In this document: positions 1 to 10,195 of the stretch, in pieces
How the letters are laid out: each line of letters begins with the position of its first letter
How positions within the stretch are numbered: the first letter of the stretch is position 1
DNA from: Desulfobacteraceae bacterium UBA2230
GTDB taxonomy: Bacteria > Desulfobacterota > Desulfobacteria > Desulfobacterales > Desulfosarcinaceae
NCBI GenBank assembly: GCA_002348005.1
Contig: DDYQ01000020.1
Span: 1 to 10,195 of the forward strand
Direction of reading: 5' to 3'
DNA length: 10,195 bases
Program-made: the position numbers and the translations under genes
Notes under the pieces: generated by a model
What the model was told of the DNA's origin: nothing
The model's input: only the letters and a program-made list of their open reading frames with translations
Databases searched by the model: none

Positions 1-659
1 CCTGCAAGCAGTGGCACGACCTGCCGGCTGAAGAGACGCTGAACCGGGGAATGTACGAGAACCCGCCCGATCTGTCGGGAACCACTTTCAAAGTGGTGCG
101 CATGAAGGAAGAGGTTATTGACGGTCGGCTGCGCTGGCTCTTTTTTCCTGAACAATGCCGGCACTGCGTCGATGCCCCCTGTGTCGACGTGGCCGGCGAC
201 GCGACCGCCATTTACCGCGACGAAAGCACCGGCGCGGTCATTTACACGGCCGCGACCAAGGAACTGGTAGCCGATGAAATCATCGAAGCCTGCCCTTACA
301 ATGTTCCGCGCAAAGGCCCCAACAACGTACTTTCCAAGTGCGACATGTGCAATGACCGGGTCCACAATGGTCTCCAGCCGATCTGCGTGAAAACCTGTGC
401 CACAGGGGCAATGAGCTTCGGTCCGCGAGAGGAGATCCTTCAAAAGGCGGAAAGCCGGCTGGCTGAAGTCCGAAAAATCCACCCCAAAGCGATTTTGACC
501 GACCCCGAGGAGGTCACGGTATTCTATCTGCTGGCGCATGATCCCTTTCTGTATCATCCGAGTGCAATCGCCTCAGCAGATTCTCCGGGGATCAGCCGCT
601 ATGCGGCGCTCAAGCGCCTGCTGCGTCCCTTTTCCCGGGCCGCAGCACACTTGGGGTAA
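1..659 (+). CDS. fdhB: Periplasmic formate dehydrogenase, iron-sulfur (beta) subunit, 5'-truncated
   Basis: This is the electron-transfer subunit of a molybdenum/tungsten formate dehydrogenase. It carries electrons from formate oxidation in the catalytic subunit through [4Fe-4S] clusters to a periplasmic acceptor such as cytochrome c3. The gene enters from the left edge: the first complete codon is at position 3, and the residues CKQWHDLPAE there match the end of the first cluster motif of this family, so the ATG at 51 is internal. Counting from that first Cys, the cluster ligands visible are the CRHC group (C52, C55, C60), C97 in EACPYNVPR, C113 and C116 in CDMC, and C128 and C132. The C-terminus has no membrane anchor helix, unlike E. 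coli FdnH, which fits the soluble Desulfovibrio-type enzyme. The catalytic subunit gene should lie just upstream, outside the window. fdhE follows on the same strand. Confidence 0.93.
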   Translation, partial: CKQWHDLPAEETLNRGMYENPPDLSGTTFKVVRMKEEVIDGRLRWLFFPEQCRHCVDAPCVDVAGDATAIYRDESTGAVIYTAATKELVADEIIEACPYNVPRKGPNNVLSKCDMCNDRVHNGLQPICVKTCATGAMSFGPREEILQKAESRLAEVRKIHPKAILTDPEEVTVFYLLAHDPFLYHPSAIASADSPGISRYAALKRLLRPFSRAAAHLG

Positions 660-810: not shown

Positions 811-1683
811 ATGCAAGTGGATTCATGGACCCCCGAAAGGGTGCACAAGGCGTTTCAGGCCGTTCTTCAGCGTGAGTCCGTCTACTCGGGCATGCTGCCT
901 TTTTTTGAATCGGTGTACATGCTGCAGGAAGCTTCTGTGGCTGCGGCACGTCCCGAGCCCCTGCCGGCGGTGATCGATGCCGCAATCGACCGGGAGCGTT
1001 CGCTGCTCGCACCCTCGCAGTTCACCATCGATTGGTCCAACGCACTGCAGCTGTTGGGCCGCCTGTGTGAACAAGCCCCTCAGTCCAATGCCGAAATGGC
1101 CGCCGGGGCAAGTTCGATCGCCGGCCGTCTGGATGCTCCTGAAACCAATTTCCAGCTTGCCTTCTCCTATTTGATAGAAGGCCGCTCAGAGGATTTCTCT
1201 GGTGCGGCAGCCGAACTGGAGGCCGGTCCCGACGTTCTGGGCTTCCTGCTGTTTAACAGTGCGTGGCCATCCATCGCCCATCATTCCCGCGCACTGGCGG
1301 CCAAATACGTTCAACCGGATTCCTGGGATAAAGGCACCTGTCCGATTTGCAATTCCGCTCCTTTCATCTCTTTGCTGGATGAAACCGGTCGCCGTGAACT
1401 GGTATGCGCGTTTTGCCGCCACCAATGGCACGCCAAACGCATTTTCTGCCCCTTCTGCGGGGAGGAGGACAGCCGCGCGCTGAGCTATTTTTTCAGCGAG
1501 GACGAAAAAGCCTATCGGGTGCATACCTGCCAATCCTGTTTGAAGTACCTTAAAAATGTGGATACCCGTGAACTGAACCGGCTCAGCTACCCGCCGCTGG
1601 AAGCGATCCTTACCACCCATCTCGACCTTACGGCCCAGCAGTTGGGTTTCAAAAGCATGACGCCTGTCTGGCTTTCGCTTTAG
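811..1683 (+). CDS. fdhE: Formate dehydrogenase accessory/maturation protein FdhE
   Basis: FdhE is a cytoplasmic iron-binding protein (rubredoxin-like in E. coli) that is needed for activity of exported formate dehydrogenases. It is thought to act on the catalytic subunit before Tat export. The 290-residue length is close to the E. coli protein. Four CxxC pairs, the family hallmark, are visible: C177/C180, C199/C202, C213/C216 and C240/C243. The N-terminal half is helical with no signal peptide or membrane segment. The start is uncertain: AGGAAG (805-810) abuts the ATG at 811, while a GTG at 817 lies six bases from it, a more normal ribosome-binding spacing; an in-frame stop at 790 rules out a longer form. 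The gene follows the beta subunit by 151 bp and probably belongs to the same operon, modulated by the hairpins between them. Confidence 0.95.
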   Translation: MQVDSWTPERVHKAFQAVLQRESVYSGMLPFFESVYMLQEASVAAARPEPLPAVIDAAIDRERSLLAPSQFTIDWSNALQLLGRLCEQAPQSNAEMAAGASSIAGRLDAPETNFQLAFSYLIEGRSEDFSGAAAELEAGPDVLGFLLFNSAWPSIAHHSRALAAKYVQPDSWDKGTCPICNSAPFISLLDETGRRELVCAFCRHQWHAKRIFCPFCGEEDSRALSYFFSEDEKAYRVHTCQSCLKYLKNVDTRELNRLSYPPLEAILTTHLDLTAQQLGFKSMTPVWLSL

Positions 1684-1908: not shown

Positions 1909-4900
1909 TTAAGCGGAGTGGTCCTCACCATCAGGCTGCCGCATGCATTCCGGGATCGATGGGGCCAGGGCCCGGGACAGGAGTTCGGCACCATTGAGTT
2001 CAGGTGCAAGCGCCACATCCACCATGGTCAGCGAAATGCTGAAGGCGCTCGCCGAAACAGCAGTTTGAGTCATTTCAATCACCTGCTCCAGGCGTTGCCG
2101 CAGCACCGAAAGCGCTTCGGTATTGTCGCAGGCTGTCAGCAGCCCCAAGGTGCGGCCGTCCAGGCGCGTGAGGGTGTCGTAGTCGCGAATGTGCCCGGTC
2201 AGCCGCTCCGCCAGGGAGCTCAAGATTTCGTCGCAGCACTCCCGCTGATCCGGCGGCTCACCCGGGTTAACCGTCAGGAGATGCAGCGAGAGCTTTTCGC
2301 CGCGCCGGCTGGCGCGGCGAACTTCCGTTTCCAGAATATTGCAGAAACCCTTGCGGTTGCACAGGTGGGTCAAATCATCCACCACGCTTTCGTTGGCCAG
2401 ACAATGGGTTAGTCGTTCCACCCGCCCGCACAAAATATTCAGAAGATTGCAGAACAGTTTGATCACCGTCGGTGGGTAGAGCCACTGAATGCGCTTCAGG
2501 ACGGCCCAGTTGATCGGTAGCAGTTCGCCATTCTCGCGGGCGATAACCGTGGCCGAGCGCGGCGCCTGGCGCAGCAGCCCCATTTCCCCAAGAATATCTC
2601 CGGCGCAGATGGAGTTGACGCTCTTCTGGCTGCCGGTGCCGGGTTTTCCATCCCCCTCGTAATCGATCACTTCAAAGCGTCCCGATACCACTGCATACAT
2701 GGAATCGCTCGGGTCTCCTTTGCGGAAGAGGATCTCACCCGCGGCTATGTTCCTGATGGTACCGGCCATGAGTATAGAATGGACTTCCGCGCGCGACAGC
2801 CCGTGCAGCAGGGGAATCTGCATGGAAGGGTCGCGGCCCATTTTGATCCGCACCAGGTCCCACAGGGTCACCAGTTCGACATGCCGCAGCAGGGAGGGTA
2901 AAATAATCAGATCGCCTGCCAGGGCCGAGAGCATGGTGATGACCATCAGCGTGCCGAATGTCGAGGTCGGCTTGAAACTTGAGAATATCAGCACCGCGAA
3001 ACCGAGACTGACCGTCAGGGTGGTAAAAATGACGGGCTGGCCGATCCGGGTCAAGGTTGTACGCATTGCCCGGCGCTCGTCCAGGTCCTTTTTAAATTCG
3101 CGGTTGAAGGTCACCATGTAGTGGATGGTGTCATCCACCGCCAGGCCGATGGCGATGCTGGCGATCAATACGGTGCCCATTGAAAGCTCTATGCCCAGCC
3201 AGCCCATCAGTCCGAAGTTGACCACGATAGGGAAGATGTTGGGCACAAGCGCTACCAGGCCGACTCTAAAGGAAAGAAACAAAAGGAACATGATGCCGAA
3301 GGTAACGGACAGAGTCAGTGAAAGGCTTTTGATTTGACCACTGACCAGATAGTGGCTGCTGGCCGATATGACCATGCCGAACCCGGTTACGTCCCACTTC
3401 AGTTCCGCGGGGAACCCGTCAGCCGAATACGAAGTGATCTTCCGACGCAACTCCAGAAAATCCCTTGAGTTGGAGATGTGCGTAAGCAGCAGGATGTTGG
3501 TGCGCGCAAAGCCTTCGTCCATAAAAGCGTTCAACATATCCGCACCCAACATGCTGCGGTAGCTGTTGATCAGCATGCGTAATTCGTAGGACTCCTCGGG
3601 CAGGCGGTAGTACTCGGGTTCGAAACGGTTGGACGCGTAGTTGACCAGTTTCAAATAGCTGGTGAAAGCGATTGCTTTGTCCACGCCCGGCAAGGTTTCG
3701 GCATATTGAGCAAGCTGGTCGATGCGACCCAGCTGTTCGATGTCTTCGAAATAGTCGGAATCGGGCGCCTGAATGTCGATATTGACGGGAAAGCTGCCGG
3801 ACAGGTGCCGGTAAATGTCATGAAAATTCTTGATAACTTCAGTATCCGGGCGGAAGTAGTCGACCGGGTTGGTTTCCACGCGCAGGCGTGGCAGGCCTGC
3901 CAGACTGATCAGGGCGATCACGCCCAACAGGGCGCATGCCGGTTTATGGTGATCGAGGTTGAGGTGTATGATGCTGTCGAGGATGCGCTGTATCCAGCGC
4001 GGCGCTCCCAGACGGTCGTGACCGCCGGCTGCGGCCGGCGCCAGAAAAGACAGCGCCACGGGCATTCCCGCCAGCAATATGATGATAAAGCCGAACATTC
4101 CCAGGCAGGCAAACAGGGCGAATTCGCGGACGGCATCGATGCGGTTGATGAACAGGGACGCCAGGCCGATAATCGTGGTGATGATGGCCAGGATAGTCGG
4201 CAGGGTGCATTCGGACATTGTTTCGATCACCGCGTCAGCCGAAGTGCCGGCCTGCTTCAGGTTGTGCCGATGCGCATTGACAATGTGCATGCAGTAGGCG
4301 GTGCCGACGGCGATCAGGAAAACCGGTACGATCATGGTGAGAATGGAGAGGTTTTTCCCGGACATGCCGATGAAGCCGAGGGTCCAGACAAGCGGCAGGA
4401 TTACGCAGAGGAGGGGGATGAGAACATATGACAGCCGCCGATAAATGGCCAGCAGCATGATCGTGATCAGGATGAAGGTGATAGGCGGCAGGCTCAAAAA
4501 ATCGCGCCGCGTGAATTGCGCCAGGGCTTGGGATATAAGCGGCATGCCGATCTGGTAGAGCGACAGGTTAGGGCCGCTTTGGGCAATGAGTGCGTCGACG
4601 GCGAAGATCACATCCGAATGCCGCGACGCGTCGGCGAGCACCAGGGTGATGGCCGAGGTGGTATGATCCCTTGAAATCAGATTGTGTTGAAACAGGGCGG
4701 TGCCGGCGATGTGCGCTTTGAAGCGCTCGGGCGGCCAATTGTCCGTGGGGTCCACCAGCTGTTTTATACCCGGCAGGCTGATGACGCGCTGGACGCCCGC
4801 GATGGCGCCTGCTGCTTCGGCCAGTTCGGTTATCTTGGCGAAACTGGCCGGTTCGAAAACGTCGTCGCATTTCACCACGATGCGGATTAGCTCTTCGGAG

Positions 4901-5121
4901 CCGAAGACCTGCTTGAATTCGGCATAGCGCGCCGCTTCCGGAATATCTTCGATAATCAGATCGTAAACCGATGTGCTGAAACGCAGGTGCGGGATGAATG
5001 AGGCCAGCACCAGGGTAATGCCGGTCAGCAGGGCCAGCACAATGTTGCGCCGCTCCAGAATGGAGCGCGCCAAAAGCCGCGTGTCGGGAATGGCCAGTTG
5101 CCAGTTGCTTCGTTTGAGCAT
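1909..5121 (-). CDS. RND/MMPL-family exporter fused to a cyclic-nucleotide-binding domain and a degenerate GGDEF domain
   Basis: This 1070-residue inner-membrane protein has an RND exporter core of the COG1033/MMPL type at about residues 1-750. TM1 lies at 27-46, a first extracytoplasmic domain at 47-211, TM2-TM6 at 212-362 and TM7 at 396-412. A second extracytoplasmic domain spans 413-598, followed by TM8-TM12 at 599-745. TM10 carries the family motif GLAVDDTIHYM (659-669), whose paired Asp are likely proton-relay residues. Residues 767-880 are a Crp-like nucleotide-binding domain with phosphate-binding cassette GEMGLLRQAPRSATV (845-859), including the Glu and Arg expected to contact the cyclic nucleotide. 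Residues 912-1050 resemble GGDEF (DDLTHLCNRKGF, 915-926), but the signature is DGRTL (988-992), so cyclase activity is unlikely; RDYD (979-982) sits at the inhibitory-site position. The substrate is unknown. The start has a weak AGGG six bases upstream. A 114-bp gap separates it from the kinase gene. Confidence 0.9.
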   Translation of the reverse strand: MLKRSNWQLAIPDTRLLARSILERRNIVLALLTGITLVLASFIPHLRFSTSVYDLIIEDIPEAARYAEFKQVFGSEELIRIVVKCDDVFEPASFAKITELAEAAGAIAGVQRVISLPGIKQLVDPTDNWPPERFKAHIAGTALFQHNLISRDHTTSAITLVLADASRHSDVIFAVDALIAQSGPNLSLYQIGMPLISQALAQFTRRDFLSLPPITFILITIMLLAIYRRLSYVLIPLLCVILPLVWTLGFIGMSGKNLSILTMIVPVFLIAVGTAYCMHIVNAHRHNLKQAGTSADAVIETMSECTLPTILAIITTIIGLASLFINRIDAVREFALFACLGMFGFIIILLAGMPVALSFLAPAAAGGHDRLGAPRWIQRILDSIIHLNLDHHKPACALLGVIALISLAGLPRLRVETNPVDYFRPDTEVIKNFHDIYRHLSGSFPVNIDIQAPDSDYFEDIEQLGRIDQLAQYAETLPGVDKAIAFTSYLKLVNYASNRFEPEYYRLPEESYELRMLINSYRSMLGADMLNAFMDEGFARTNILLLTHISNSRDFLELRRKITSYSADGFPAELKWDVTGFGMVISASSHYLVSGQIKSLSLTLSVTFGIMFLLFLSFRVGLVALVPNIFPIVVNFGLMGWLGIELSMGTVLIASIAIGLAVDDTIHYMVTFNREFKKDLDERRAMRTTLTRIGQPVIFTTLTVSLGFAVLIFSSFKPTSTFGTLMVITMLSALAGDLIILPSLLRHVELVTLWDLVRIKMGRDPSMQIPLLHGLSRAEVHSILMAGTIRNIAAGEILFRKGDPSDSMYAVVSGRFEVIDYEGDGKPGTGSQKSVNSICAGDILGEMGLLRQAPRSATVIARENGELLPINWAVLKRIQWLYPPTVIKLFCNLLNILCGRVERLTHCLANESVVDDLTHLCNRKGFCNILETEVRRASRRGEKLSLHLLTVNPGEPPDQRECCDEILSSLAERLTGHIRDYDTLTRLDGRTLGLLTACDNTEALSVLRQRLEQVIEMTQTAVSASAFSISLTMVDVALAPELNGAELLSRALAPSIPECMRQPDGEDHSA

Positions 5122-5235: not shown

Positions 5236-7101
5236 TCAGGAAGCGACCGGAAAAGAGAGCTTGAACATGGTCCCCTGGCCTTCGACGCTCGACACATCGA
5301 TCTTGCCGCCATAATCCTCGACGATGCCGTAAGAGATCGAAAGCCCCAGTCCCATGCCTTCGCCCATTTCTTTGGTGGTGAAGAAGGCTTCGAAGATTTT
5401 TTTGCGCATGGTTTCAGGGATTCCGCTGCCGTTGTCGGCCACCGAAACCACCGACCAGCCGTTTTCGGGATAGGTGCGGATGGTGATCTTGCGATCCACC
5501 TCGGGGTGCGTCTCGGCTTTTTGGTTCAGTGCGTCGCGCGCATTGGTCACCAGATTGAAGATGACCTGCTCTAAACGGTTCGGATGGGCCAGCACGATCG
5601 GCGGGTCCTCGGATAGATCGAGTTCTATCGTTATGTTCTGCAAAGCCAGTTGCCGGCCCAGAATTTTCAACACACTGTTAATCGGCTGGTTTAAAGAAAC
5701 TTTTTCGCGGCTGAAGTCCGACTTGCGCCCGAAGTCGCGCAGCCGTCTGATGATGTCCGTGGCGCGGTCGACCTGCCGGCTGATCTCCTCTACCACCACC
5801 TGTGCATCCCTGGGCTGCGTTTTGCGACGATCCTCCATGACCATCTCCAAAAACTCGCTTCCCATTTTGATGGCGTTCAGGGGCTGGTTGAGTTCGTGGG
5901 CAATACCAGCCGACATCTCTCCCAGGGTCTTCAACTTGCTGAACTGGATCAGCAGATTGTCTTTCTCCACCATTTCGGTGATGTCGGTGGTGGCGACGAT
6001 CAAGGCCTCCTGGTCGCCATAGTCCACCGGACAGGCCTGCACATTGACGTAGAAGGGGACTTCGCCTTTTTTCAGATAACGCTCCTTGGCGCTGACGATA
6101 ACGGTTTCGAATCCTTCCTTGCGACCGTCGGTCGCTCCCGGCTTGTAATCGAATCGGCCCAGTACGGAGAACGGTTTGCCCTTGAGTTCTTCACGGCTGT
6201 ACCCATAGGTGTCTTCGGCCGTCGGGTTTGCATCCAGAATCCTGAAGGAGTGGCGCTCGAGCACGAAGATCGGATTGGGGCCGCTCGCAAACAGGGAGCG
6301 GTACTTCTGTTCCGATTCGCGCAGCTTGATCTGGGACTGGATGATGCGCTGGGTCATATTGTCGAAAGAATAGGCCAGTTTCTGGACCTCATCCTTCGCC
6401 GGTTGGCGGCTCAGAACCTGGCGGCCCAGATCGACATGCACTTCGAAATTGCCCCGGCTGAGTTCATCCGAAATCCGGGTCAGCTGGGAAATGGGTTTGG
6501 TGATGTAACGGGCCAGCCAGTGGCTGAGAATGAAGCAGAAAACGGTCACCACCGAAACGAACCCCAGGAAGGTAATGCGCAGCTTTCCAATCAGCTGATC
6601 GATGTGCTTCTTGTAGAGTCCGACATGGATGCTGCCGATCTGGTAGATGCCTTCCAGCACCGGTACGGCAACGTCATAGACGTCATCGCCGCCGAGTCGC
6701 AACAGGGCCACCTGATGCGGCAATTCCGCCGCCATGTGGTTGGCGTACTGCAGACCCTGCGGAAAGGGTCTCACGAAAGTATGCGCCAGGACATTATCCT
6801 GCTTGTCCTGAACGAAAATGTAATTGATCAGCAGGCGGCGTTCGCCAAGCCGGGCCTCGAATATCAGGCTGGTCAACTGACCGATGTCCCGGGTCAGGAT
6901 AAAGGTGCGGCCGCTCTCCGCAATGCTGTTGGCAATTCCCAGCCCGCGCAGCTTCAGCTCCGAAGTCAAACCGGAAATCAGAATCCAGCGGGTAAAGACC
7001 GCAATGGGGATGCTGATCAGCAGGGTGACCAGGGCGGTGGTGATAAAAATTTTGTTTTTAAGGCTGGTATTGCCCAGCCGCGCGGCTATTCGTTTAACCA
7101 T
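5236..7101 (-). CDS. Membrane-bound PAS sensor histidine kinase
   Basis: This 621-residue inner-membrane two-component sensor autophosphorylates on His and should pass the phosphate to a response regulator not found in this window. Order of domains: TM1 about 19-42, an extracytoplasmic sensor region about 43-175 of unassigned fold, TM2 about 176-197, HAMP linker about 198-252, PAS about 265-375, dimerisation/phosphoacceptor domain about 389-455 with H402 in [11 protein letters not shown], and an ATPase domain about 500-619. ATP-binding boxes are intact: N-box [10 protein letters not shown] (516-525), G1 DNGSGIP (556-562), F-box around F570-F574 and G2 GMGLGLS (582-588). The HELNQPL form resembles DctB/NtrB-like kinases. 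The gene overlaps the upstream lipoprotein gene by 16 bp and has no clear Shine-Dalgarno sequence of its own, which suggests translational coupling and a joint sensing role. Confidence 0.95.
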
Positions 7102-8273
7102 ACGAAACGGCCATCTTTGATGATCGTGAAATAGACCCGCTCCAATCCCTGATGGTCTTCGGGGCTGAAGGCGAGCGGGTTGTCGATTCCCAGATCCAAT
7201 TGGTCTATCGATTCGATCGCATCGATGAAGCGCTCCCGATCCAGGGCCGGGCCGGCGCGCCGCAAACCTTCCACCAGTACTTTTGCATTGATGTACCCTT
7301 CCAGGCTGACGAAATTGGGCGCGTCATCCGGGAAATATTTTTTAAGCCGCTGGACGTAATCCTCGGCGCCCCACATGCGCAGCTCCTTGCGTCGCGGTTC
7401 AGGCGGCGGCACCACCTGGGTGATGATCACGCCTTCGGCATCCGGACCGAGAATCCGGCACAGTTCGTCTGCGCCCACGAATGACACGTTGGTGAAGATC
7501 GGACGGAAATCCCTGGAAAGCGCGAGTTGGATAAACCGCGCACACGGTTCGTACGTGCCGATCATCACGACCGCTTCCGCGCCGGCCGCCATGATCTTCT
7601 CGAGACCTTCTTCGACCTGGAGGGTCCCGCGCACATAGGTACCGGTGGCCACCGGTACCAGATCGTACTGCTTAAGGGCCAGTTCGGTGCCGCGCAGCCC
7701 ATCGAATCCATAAGCGTCGTACTGATAAAATACCGCGATTTTGCGCACCTGCCGCTTTTCCACCAGGTGCTGAACCATGGCACCGGTCTCCTGGTAGTAA
7801 GAAGCGCGGACGCTGATCAGGTAACGGCTCAAGGGTTCACGCAGGGCGTGGGCGCCGGTGAACATACCCACCAGCGGGATGCGGGCCTCCTGAACCAGGG
7901 GGATGATTTTTACCGTGGTGGGCGTGCCGACATAGCAGAAGAGGGCGAAAACATTGTCTTCGATGATCAGCCGCTGGGTGTTGAGCACGCACAGCGGCGG
8001 ATCGTAGCCGTCGTTGTAGTGGATTACCCGGAGCTGCCGGCCGTGAATGCCTCCGGATTCATTGATGTGGTGAATGTACGACATGGCGCCGTGCAGGGTC
8101 TGGGTTCCGAGATATCCCGCATGGCCCTCAAGGGCCAATGAAGAGCCGATCACGATTTCGTTGGCGCTGATGCCGGTCAGGGCCGAGTGCGTCGGTAACG
8201 GGGCCAGATCTTTTTGGCACGCCGTGGCGCCGAGCAACAGGGTGATGAAAAAAGCGAGGACGATGCGGTTCAT
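7086..8273 (-). CDS. Periplasmic solute-binding lipoprotein, branched-chain amino-acid (LivJ-like, type I) family
   Basis: This is a 395-residue ligand-binding protein of the ABC-transporter Leu/Ile/Val-binding family. The N-terminus is a lipoprotein signal peptide with lipobox-like ATAC (16-19), so C19 is probably lipidated and the protein membrane-tethered. The mature part starts at EIVIGSSLALEG (39-50) and shows family landmarks: GAMSYIHHINESGGIHGR (62-79), YVGTPTTVKIIPLVQEARIPLVG (114-136) and the KIAVFYQYDAYGFDG stretch (178-192). The ligand cannot be read from sequence; amino acids, amides, aromatic acids and others are known in this family. No permease or ATPase genes are nearby. Instead a histidine kinase gene overlaps its 3' end, which points to a sensory co-receptor role, although servicing a distant transporter remains possible. 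GAGG (8281-8284 on the plus strand as CCTC), seven bases upstream, supports the start. Confidence 0.93.
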   Translation of the reverse strand: MNRIVLAFFITLLLGATACQKDLAPLPTHSALTGISANEIVIGSSLALEGHAGYLGTQTLHGAMSYIHHINESGGIHGRQLRVIHYNDGYDPPLCVLNTQRLIIEDNVFALFCYVGTPTTVKIIPLVQEARIPLVGMFTGAHALREPLSRYLISVRASYYQETGAMVQHLVEKRQVRKIAVFYQYDAYGFDGLRGTELALKQYDLVPVATGTYVRGTLQVEEGLEKIMAAGAEAVVMIGTYEPCARFIQLALSRDFRPIFTNVSFVGADELCRILGPDAEGVIITQVVPPPEPRRKELRMWGAEDYVQRLKKYFPDDAPNFVSLEGYINAKVLVEGLRRAGPALDRERFIDAIESIDQLDLGIDNPLAFSPEDHQGLERVYFTIIKDGRFVWLNE

Positions 8274-8404: not shown

Positions 8405-8995
8405 TCATTGGACCGGGTGCAAACGCTCGAGCTGCTGCGCGATGACTTCCAATTTGGGGCGCTGGTTGATGTCGGAAACGTGAATATGGCTGATGAGCCC
8501 CGAACGATCGATAAAGATCAAGGCGCGCTCGGCAGTCCCGTCGCTGCGCAGGACGCCGTATTGCTCGGCGACCTGCCCGTGCGGCCAAAAATCGGAGAGC
8601 ACCGGAAACCAGAGTGCTCCCATCTGGCGGGTCCAGGACCATAATGTGGGAAGGTTGTCGGTGGTGATGCCGATCAGTAAAGTATGGTGTGCTTTGAAAA
8701 GGCTTTCGGCCAGCTGGTATCCCGGCCATTGATCCGAGCAGACCGGCGTCCAGGCGGCCGGCACGAAGGAGATCACCACATTGGACCCCCTCAAGGCGCT
8801 GAGCTGCACCTTTCGGCCGTCGATCGACGGCAAGGTAAAGTCCGGCGCCATTTGGCCGGCCCGGACCTTCAACTGACTGTCGATCGGCTTTAATAGCCCC
8901 GGGTTGTAGATATGATTTTCGAAAGCCACCGATCCCGCCCTGACCGGCGCGATTGCGGCCATCCAGATTGTCAGCCCGATTAACCATCTGATCAT
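8405..8995 (-). CDS. Exported peroxiredoxin-like (AhpC/TSA, redoxin) protein with one cysteine
   Basis: This 196-residue protein has a thioredoxin fold of the AhpC/TSA class, whose members reduce peroxides through a reactive cysteine. The first 20 residues form a Sec signal peptide (hydrophobic core LIGLTIWMAAIA, likely cleavage after PVRA), placing the protein in the periplasm. The mature domain begins APDFTLPSIDG (50-60). The peroxidatic motif is PAAWTPVC (79-86), with the expected Pro79, Thr83 and Cys86, and R157 may be the conserved active-site arginine. C86 is the only cysteine, so it would act as a 1-Cys enzyme or rely on a partner to resolve the sulfenic acid. A strong AAGGAG (plus-strand CTCCTT at 9003-9008) seven bases upstream supports the start. 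The gene lies 12 bp behind the TlpA-like gene, clearly the same operon. A non-peroxidase redoxin role is possible. Confidence 0.85.
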   Translation of the reverse strand: MIRWLIGLTIWMAAIAPVRAGSVAFENHIYNPGLLKPIDSQLKVRAGQMAPDFTLPSIDGRKVQLSALRGSNVVISFVPAAWTPVCSDQWPGYQLAESLFKAHHTLLIGITTDNLPTLWSWTRQMGALWFPVLSDFWPHGQVAEQYGVLRSDGTAERALIFIDRSGLISHIHVSDINQRPKLEVIAQQLERLHPVQ

Positions 8996-9007
8996 GATTA
9001 AACTCCT

Positions 9008-9577
9008 TCATTTCCCGCCGATTTGGGTGATGTGCTGCAGGAACTGCTGCGCGGAATCGAATTTGCCGGTATGGGTATAGATCACACGCGGACCGGTGGT
9101 GCGATCCTGCCGAACCACAATGAAGAAAGGCGTACGGACTTCTCCGATTTGTTTGTGGATCGTGAAGTCTTCATCCGAAAAGAGAGGGAATTCGATCTTA
9201 TAGCTCTTGCTGAAGAAATCCACTTCATAGGCTGAATTGCCCACCCCGATGCCGATCATCTTGATGCGCTTCCTGAGATCGGGAGTTTCCGCCAGCAGGG
9301 TAAAGAGCTGGTTGACCTTCGGGGCCTCGGCCTGGCAGTGCGGACAATACATGCTGAAAATTTCGATGATCAGCAGTTCGCCCTGGATCTGGCCGATGTC
9401 GCAGTTCGGGGCCGTGGTGGAGAGGCCCAGATATTCCCGATGTTGTGCGCTTGAGGGCAGGGACAAACGGATGTCCGGCAGGGGGTCGTTTGCGGCCGGT
9501 GCGCGGTTTTGAGCTTCCCCCGAGACCAAGGTCAGCAGGAACAGGAGCAATCCTGCTGCCAGGTTTAAACGCTTCAT
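9008..9577 (-). CDS. Exported TlpA/ResA-like thioredoxin-fold protein with CPHC motif
   Basis: This is a 189-residue periplasmic thiol-disulfide protein. An N-terminal signal sequence (KR then LAAGLLLFLLTLVSG, 7-20) precedes a thioredoxin domain. The active site is MYCPHC (76-81; C78 and C81) and the cis-proline loop is RTPFF (148-152, P150). The CPHC dipeptide is that of DsbA, but the fold context (IIEIFSMYCPHC followed by a helix, then the GIGVGNS strand) is TlpA/ResA-like, so it could reduce or oxidise partners. An extra Cys59 lies before the domain. It starts the minus-strand operon, with GGGAG (plus-strand CTCCC at 9585-9589) seven bases from the ATG. Its natural partner may be the single-cysteine peroxiredoxin-like protein encoded 12 bp downstream. 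Being divergent from a hydrogenase gene suggests a role in redox protection or maturation of periplasmic enzymes. Confidence 0.87.
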   Translation of the reverse strand: MKRLNLAAGLLLFLLTLVSGEAQNRAPAANDPLPDIRLSLPSSAQHREYLGLSTTAPNCDIGQIQGELLIIEIFSMYCPHCQAEAPKVNQLFTLLAETPDLRKRIKMIGIGVGNSAYEVDFFSKSYKIEFPLFSDEDFTIHKQIGEVRTPFFIVVRQDRTTGPRVIYTHTGKFDSAQQFLQHITQIGGK

Positions 9578-9901: not shown

Positions 9902-9907
9902 AGGAGG
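9902..9907 (+). promoter_or_regulatory. Consensus ribosome-binding site of the hydrogenase small subunit gene
   Basis: AGGAGG, continuing to AGGAGGTG, is a full match to the anti-Shine-Dalgarno sequence and ends five bases before the ATG at 9913. It fixes the start codon and predicts strong translation. Confidence 0.85.
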
Positions 9908-9912
9908 TGCCA

Positions 9913-10195
9913 ATGGAGAACGAGAAACAATTCTACGAAAGGTTGGAGAGCAAGGGGGTCTCACGAAGGGACTTTATGAAGTACTGCACCTTCCTGACCG
10001 CCACCTTGGGGCTGTCAGCATCCTTTGTGCCCAAGGTGGCCGAGGTGTTTGCCGCGCCCAGACAGCGTCCGCCATTAATCTGGCTGAATTTGGCGGAGTG
10101 CACGGGCTGTGCGGAAGGGATGTTGCGAACGATGTATCCTTACGTCGACGAACTGGTTCTGGAGATTCTCTCCATCGAGTATCATGAAACCATCA
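9913..10195 (+). CDS. hynB: Periplasmic [NiFe] hydrogenase small subunit, 3'-truncated by window edge
   Basis: This is the iron-sulfur electron-transfer subunit of a group 1 [NiFe] hydrogenase. It takes electrons from H2 oxidation at the large subunit's Ni-Fe site and passes them through a proximal, medial and distal cluster relay to a periplasmic acceptor. The 94 visible residues start with a twin-arginine signal, SRRDFMKYC at residues 17-25, then a hydrophobic stretch (TFLTATLGLSASFV) and a cleavage-like FAAP. The mature part opens PPLIWLNLAECTGCAEGML. The ECTGC pair supplies the first two proximal-cluster cysteines. The next stretch (PYVDELVLEILSIEYHET) resembles the Desulfovibrio gigas type. 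The usual ECTGCSES reads ECTGCAEG here, a mild deviation. The large-subunit gene is expected just beyond the window. The Tat signal exports the folded heterodimer, as for the formate dehydrogenase at the other end of the window. Confidence 0.95.
   Translation, partial: MENEKQFYERLESKGVSRRDFMKYCTFLTATLGLSASFVPKVAEVFAAPRQRPPLIWLNLAECTGCAEGMLRTMYPYVDELVLEILSIEYHETI

Follow-up and report, generated by a model that had tools for sequence, protein, structure and literature searches.

RND proteins are familiar as pumps, while among their relatives Patched, SCAP and NPC1 act as sterol-related receptors or sensors. HAE3/MMPL-type RND transporters (TIGR00921; structures of HpnN, MmpL3-5 and NPC1) share the common RND fold, two MMPL halves and a VDDTIH motif in transmembrane helix 10 (TM10). 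We have analyzed a stretch of 10,195 nucleotides from Desulfobacteraceae bacterium UBA2230 (contig DDYQ01000020.1; hereafter the window), which encodes a protein of this build; unlike the described HAE3/MMPL-type transporters, however, it carries an added 300-residue cytoplasmic signalling tail, made of a cyclic-nucleotide-binding domain (CNBD) and a degenerate GGDEF domain, belongs to a hydrogenase-linked family and scores under the TIGR00921 cut-off. The SLC5/STAC transceptors (CbrA, CrbS, RpuS; PMC13022988, PMC7096432, PMC9100948, PMC5715377) and what we call the kinase-type sisters of the window protein both combine, within a single polypeptide, a histidine kinase with a transporter-like membrane part. 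The SLC5-kinase transceptor CbrA is the nearest precedent (PMC13022988), and a term search of that paper's text for 'RND' and 'MMPL' returned neither. The sisters differ from these transceptors in having an RND and not an SLC5 core, and in the absence of a PAS domain from the sole sister scanned (L124; loci, genomes and proteins are given L, G and P numbers), whereas in the window protein CNBD-GGDEF stands in place of the kinase. MFS transporters fused to CNBDs, mentioned in another paper (PMC10710835), also pair a transporter with a cyclic-nucleotide-binding tail, but their transporter fold is different. As described in PMC3509222, the c-di-GMP receptors SgmT and PopA combine a dead active site (A-site) with an intact I-site; the window GGDEF domain has the same dead A-site and a kept RxxD motif, but shares its chain with an RND core and a CNBD, and its ligand binding is a prediction. 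With CRP and the channel SthK the window protein shares the CNBD fold and the phosphate-binding cassette, although it has no DNA-binding domain and is not a channel. No description of an RND-CNBD-GGDEF or RND-histidine-kinase fusion, or of its hydrogenase link, was found in searches of an open-access library (subscription journals being mostly outside the search), which agrees with an earlier note on this DNA that had suspected a little-described class. Our preferred, still tentative, interpretation is that the window protein is an RND transporter or transceptor linked to hydrogen metabolism and coupled to an exchangeable cytoplasmic signalling module.

The cytoplasmic module differs between paralogues with the same core. 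In genome searches, in which just the top two candidates per genome were scored, so that all genome counts are lower bounds, matches to paralogues end near residue 760 of the window protein while the frame continues for about 260 residues. Pfam matches on L124 show this continuation to be HisKA and HATPase_c, placed directly past the last transmembrane helix. In 13 kinase-type loci the RND core shares 46-53% identity with that of the window, and a junction H-V-E-L-V-T-x-W-D-L, with minor variation, is common to both kinds; the modules diverge only past it. HATPase_c is present in all 120 kinase-type proteins among the matches listed, together with the H-box pattern in 115, the N-box pattern in 108 and GxGLGL in 96, and from their sequence the sister kinases look competent. 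The window protein has no histidine kinase in its own chain. The match extends through the kinase part in at least 14 of 291 genomes, and both kinds occur together in seven (G003, G007, G022, G068, G100, G114 and G242; in G100 the CNBD-GGDEF type is judged by the match range only). In a tree of 51 RND cores, obtained by a quick, short search that left 15 of 48 inner branches open, kinase types are interspersed among CNBD-GGDEF types, with four changes of module label, at least two of them forced by starred branches. In one locus (L113:3285-8854) a CNBD-GGDEF gene and, on the same strand, a 519-residue fragment of an RND-kinase gene lie side by side. The kinase-type sister loci comprise L085, L087, L093, L096, L117-L129, L168 and L196, most of them in [NiFe]-hydrogenase loci, L129 not.

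Genes for [NiFe]-hydrogenase large and small subunits, a HycI-type protease, HypF, HypD, HypE and ApbE are found as neighbours of both kinds. When loci with a flank of at least 6 kb are counted, a hydrogenase or hyp gene lies within 8 kb in 13/14 kinase-type and 11/25 CNBD-GGDEF loci, as against 1/21 loci of a more distant, CNBD-only kind and 0/39 other MMPL genes of the same genomes (Fisher's test versus these controls, kinship ignored: kinase type 1.7e-11, CNBD-GGDEF type 6.0e-6). These main ratios exclude loci with a flank under 6 kb, and the window is in none of them; with the short-flank loci included, the figures are 15/16 for the kinase type and 12/30 for the CNBD-GGDEF type. The controls were 40 MMPL places hand-picked from a longer list, non-randomly and mostly in list order; L168 turned out to belong to the kinase-type sisters and was reassigned to them, which reduced the controls to 39. 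L113, which carries both types, was counted once in each, and four RND pieces without an assigned tail type (the second gene of L135, and L140, L142 and L144, the last three near hydrogenase genes) were not counted. The CNBD-only ratio combines 0/12 in a first count with nine further loci with enough flank. Close to its sole case, L004, lie genes for a HycI-type protease and a large subunit; the sister of L004, L130, has no hydrogenase gene. Since L004 is on the branch nearest in identity (38% in the core), the hydrogenase linkage may predate the module swap. In L168 and L196 the gene order is structural small and large subunit, HycI, RND-kinase, second small and large subunit, histidine kinase and receiver. 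A second, divergent [NiFe]-hydrogenase pair by the RND-kinase gene is seen in these two loci and at L117:12319-14785, L121:4689-7271 and L128:4581-7080; in most cases a histidine kinase and a receiver come next. The second hydrogenase has no Tat-type start in the three loci read (L117, L121 and L128). In L117 and L128 its large subunit extends little past the last Cys-His motif, in L121 further; we take this hydrogenase to resemble the hydrogen-sensing HupUV/HoxBC type.

The RND gene of the window adjoins genes for a periplasmic binding protein and a Cache histidine kinase. The same pair adjoins kinase-type RND genes in L120, L124 and L129 and lies nearby in L117, L126 has only the kinase, and among CNBD-GGDEF loci the pair is found in the window only. 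That both kinds of RND protein stand beside the same signalling pair, albeit with one CNBD-GGDEF case, gives reason to think that the RND core carries a common function.

The earlier note had read the protein as an RND core running in one frame into a CRP-like CNBD and then a GGDEF-like domain, an order that the domain matches and the predicted fold bear out; of the last domain the fold stands, and the catalytic signature does not. The core is a two-halved MMPL/RND fold with VDD(T)IH in TM10; it scores 224.8 bits against TIGR00921 (HAE3), under the curated cut-off of 351.9, and is therefore called HAE3-like and not HAE3 proper. The CNBD scores over the Pfam cNMP_binding cut-off and has the CNBD fold, with an intact phosphate-binding cassette (G-E...R-S-A) that retains its Glu and Arg. 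Among 158 close relatives (P0001-P0159 except P0121; they are the top scorers of two longer lists, so that the figures describe conservation among close relatives), Glu846 is kept in 158, Arg855 in 157 and both in 157; in a broader set of 29 CNBD-GGDEF proteins, that of the window and those of the genome loci, 24 retain Glu846 and 20 retain Arg855. The GGDEF domain also scores over its Pfam cut-off. However, a D/E-E pair at aligned positions 990-991 is found in 0/158 relatives (two being gapped at the I-site and the signature), and GG[DE]EF in 0/29 proteins of the broader set, the window included. In the 158 relatives position 988 is Asp in 124, 991 is Thr in 92 and 992 is Phe in 148; just 17 have Asp at position 950, which by eye corresponds to the first metal-binding Asp. 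The I-site R979xxD982 is kept in 150/158, and in the broader set R979 is kept in 26 and D982 in 27. With a GGDEF fold, a dead A-site and an RxxD I-site, the window domain has the features of a degenerate-GGDEF receptor, and the motifs of the whole tail suggest a dual receiver rather than a cyclase. At the GGDEF place the family consensus is DxxTF, whose recurrent D988 and T991 may mark a putative new ligand site. A Hypr GGDEF enzyme of Geobacter is reportedly involved in cGAMP signalling (PMC6456294), and the dinucleotide of the window protein could therefore be cGAMP.

We thus propose a proton-driven, HAE3-like RND protein whose conformational cycle would be coupled, via the short junction past the last transmembrane helix, to the exchangeable module. 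In the window protein the module would be a receiver: the CNBD would bind a cyclic mononucleotide, probably cAMP, the I-site of the dead GGDEF domain would take up c-di-GMP or a related dinucleotide, and the two domains would jointly control the state of the core. In the kinase-type sisters, the core would instead report its own state to a two-component pathway, as in transporter-kinase transceptors. The role of the family would lie in hydrogen metabolism and, in the window, also in formate metabolism. Allosteric gating by a cyclic nucleotide, put forward in the earlier note, is plausible for a protein with an intact cassette, as is gating by c-di-GMP for one with a dead active site and a kept RxxD. 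Given the kinase-bearing sisters and the [NiFe]-hydrogenase linkage, however, an exporter simply gated by second messengers is less likely than a hydrogen-related transporter or transceptor. The greater surprise in the picture is the wider family and its position in hydrogenase loci. A bolder form of this proposal, possible but doubtful, is that these RND proteins of Desulfobacteria are a new transceptor class for hydrogen (and formate) metabolism, in which the core would have evolved to read the periplasmic state around the hydrogenase. In one branch the core would relay its own state to a histidine kinase, in another cAMP and a cyclic dinucleotide would set the state of the core, and the two kinds would be interchangeable beside the same binding-protein/Cache-kinase pair. 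If true, an RND core that swaps kinase and nucleotide-receiver tails, often in hydrogenase loci, would be a testable bacterial case of the RND fold in signalling, and a new control point over hydrogen use in sulfate-reducer-like bacteria.

Several observations weigh against the transceptor proposal. Hydrogenase genes are absent from the vicinity of 14/25 CNBD-GGDEF loci, and the four nearest tree neighbours of the window (L097-L100; the flank of L098 is just 2 kb) have none. In the broader set, Glu846 is lost in 5 proteins and Arg855 in 9, two of the latter (L102 and L107) being hydrogenase-linked, and RxxD is broken in 3 (L003, L108 and L109); nucleotide binding therefore cannot be general in the CNBD-GGDEF type. 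Moreover, conservation of RxxD may have structural reasons. In favour of the proposal, class III cyclases are present in 18/18 genomes searched. A supply of cyclic mononucleotide by neighbouring cyclases is suggested by a cyclase gene in 5/30 CNBD-GGDEF loci (adjoining by position in L099, L139 and L155); the corresponding figure for controls is 3/39 (p 0.28, not significant), and the cyclase profile, built in-house from L097 and L099, is biased toward the CNBD-GGDEF side, so that this is suggestive only and lends cAMP weak support. Finally, TM4 has no Asp at positions 275-276 in 28/28 readable CNBD-GGDEF and 13/13 kinase-type proteins. We rejected this as a sign of lost transport: because TM4 is highly variable across 89 other HAE3-like open reading frames (among them L168, itself a kinase-type sister), its lack of Asp argues neither for nor against transport. 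Seven of the nine proteins without Arg855 (L110, L111, L114-L116, L141 and L143) form one divergent clade with a decayed CNBD cassette. As a separate observation, L110, L111 and L114 adjoin a binding protein of the DctP cluster.

The main rival, which we consider possible though unlikely, is a non-transporting RND core that would sense, at the membrane, proton-motive force, periplasmic pH or redox state, or a lipid or quinone, signalling via its own kinase in the sisters and via the neighbouring Cache/PAS histidine kinase here, with the CNBD-GGDEF tail as a modulator. The position of HisKA and HATPase_c in the sisters, directly behind the last helix, would suit such a sensor, as would the neighbouring kinase and binding protein common to both kinds; no outer-membrane channel or adaptor was found among the neighbour representatives scanned, some neighbours being unscanned and a few without any match. 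Against it, D663 and H667 of TM10 are kept in 29/29 CNBD-GGDEF and 13/13 kinase-type proteins, as expected of a working proton-driven core. Less likely still is that the CNBD and GGDEF domain no longer bind nucleotides and serve in oligomer formation or partner docking only. The loss of the GGDEF signature in all proteins compared is in keeping with this, as are the cassette losses in a minority of loci, which includes two with hydrogenase linkage, and the long helix that joins the domains in the manner of dimerisation helices, but the window and 157/158 relatives keep both CNBD residues, and RxxD persists in 150/158 while many other GGDEF-domain positions vary. That the tail is an active diguanylate cyclase under transporter control is highly improbable: the Pfam match and the automatic names 'diguanylate cyclase (GGDEF)-like protein' speak for it, but we rejected it on the lost signature, DGRTL standing for GGDEF, and on the rarity of Asp at position 950.

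The fusion itself is widespread. A search of 5.8 billion proteins returned 948 homologues (E <= 1e-20), and among the matches listed 118/120, query included, carry MMPL, cNMP_binding and GGDEF together, so that the domain order raised in the earlier note is kept well beyond this genome. The tail region, used as query, matched 277 proteins (E <= 1e-6); among the matches listed all 120 have MMPL, P0126 alone has no GGDEF call, and the tail is seen only with an RND core, in a search where proteins far shorter than 588 residues could not appear. Named sources include Desulfosarcina, Desulfobacterales and Deltaproteobacteria (for example, Desulfosarcina alkanivorans DSCA_17040), and at least 51/291 genomes of the class of L001's genome match at E <= 1e-100 with any tail type. 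With all three domains in 118/120 of the matches listed and in independent genomes, and with nothing found in its favour, a sequencing, assembly or frameshift artefact is scarcely credible, and we rejected an assembly join.

The CNBD-only kind mentioned above, of about 890-930 residues, is the third and more distant one, and occurs in Desulfobacteria genomes as well as in records that carry the labels Deltaproteobacteria/Myxococcota, Binatota and Nevskiaceae; examples are L004, L005, L008, L009, L011, L012, L029, L031 and L130-L136. A 300-residue extension in L016 (5878-9561), considered as a third tail, was left out, having no Pfam domain past the CNBD and being, by eye, probable non-coding read-through.

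Table 1. Genes and protein features of the window, with positions counted from its first nucleotide.
Feature	Residues	Positions	Strand	Remarks
Formate-dehydrogenase beta-like (FdhB-like) iron-sulfur subunit		3..659	+	truncated by window start
FdhE-like formate-dehydrogenase accessory protein		811..1683	+	NCBIfam FdhE, under cut-off
RND-CNBD-GGDEF gene, whole	1070 in all	1909..5121	-	single uninterrupted frame
RND core, HAE3-like, MMPL	14-757	2851..5082	-	best NCBIfam match TIGR00921 HAE3, under its cut-off
TM4 motif VGTAYCMH	272-279	4285..4308	-	Ala-Tyr where other RND proteins may have Asp
TM10 motif VDDTIH	662-667	3121..3138	-	common to most HAE3-like proteins compared
Junction HVELVTLWDLV, past last transmembrane helix	747-757	2851..2883	-	kept in kinase-type sisters
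CNBD, CRP-like	790-877	2491..2754	-	Pfam
Phosphate-binding cassette GDILGEMGLLRQAPRSATV	841-859	2545..2601	-	
Long helix linking CNBD to GGDEF fold	883-911	2389..2475	-	
GGDEF-fold domain, degenerate	913-1031	2029..2385	-	Pfam
I-site RxxD (RDYD)	979-982	2176..2187	-	
DGRTL at the GGDEF signature place	988-992	2146..2160	-	
Histidine kinase (Cache, HAMP, PAS, HisKA, HATPase_c)		5236..7101	-	114 bases upstream of RND gene
Periplasmic binding protein (Peripla_BP_6)		7086..8273	-	16-base overlap with kinase gene
AhpC/TSA-type redoxin		8405..8995	-	
Thioredoxin-like redoxin		9008..9577	-	
[NiFe]-hydrogenase small subunit, start		9907..10195	+	Tat signal; truncated by window end

Upstream of the binding-protein gene the window also holds two redoxin genes (8405-9577), and similar genes are present in L117.

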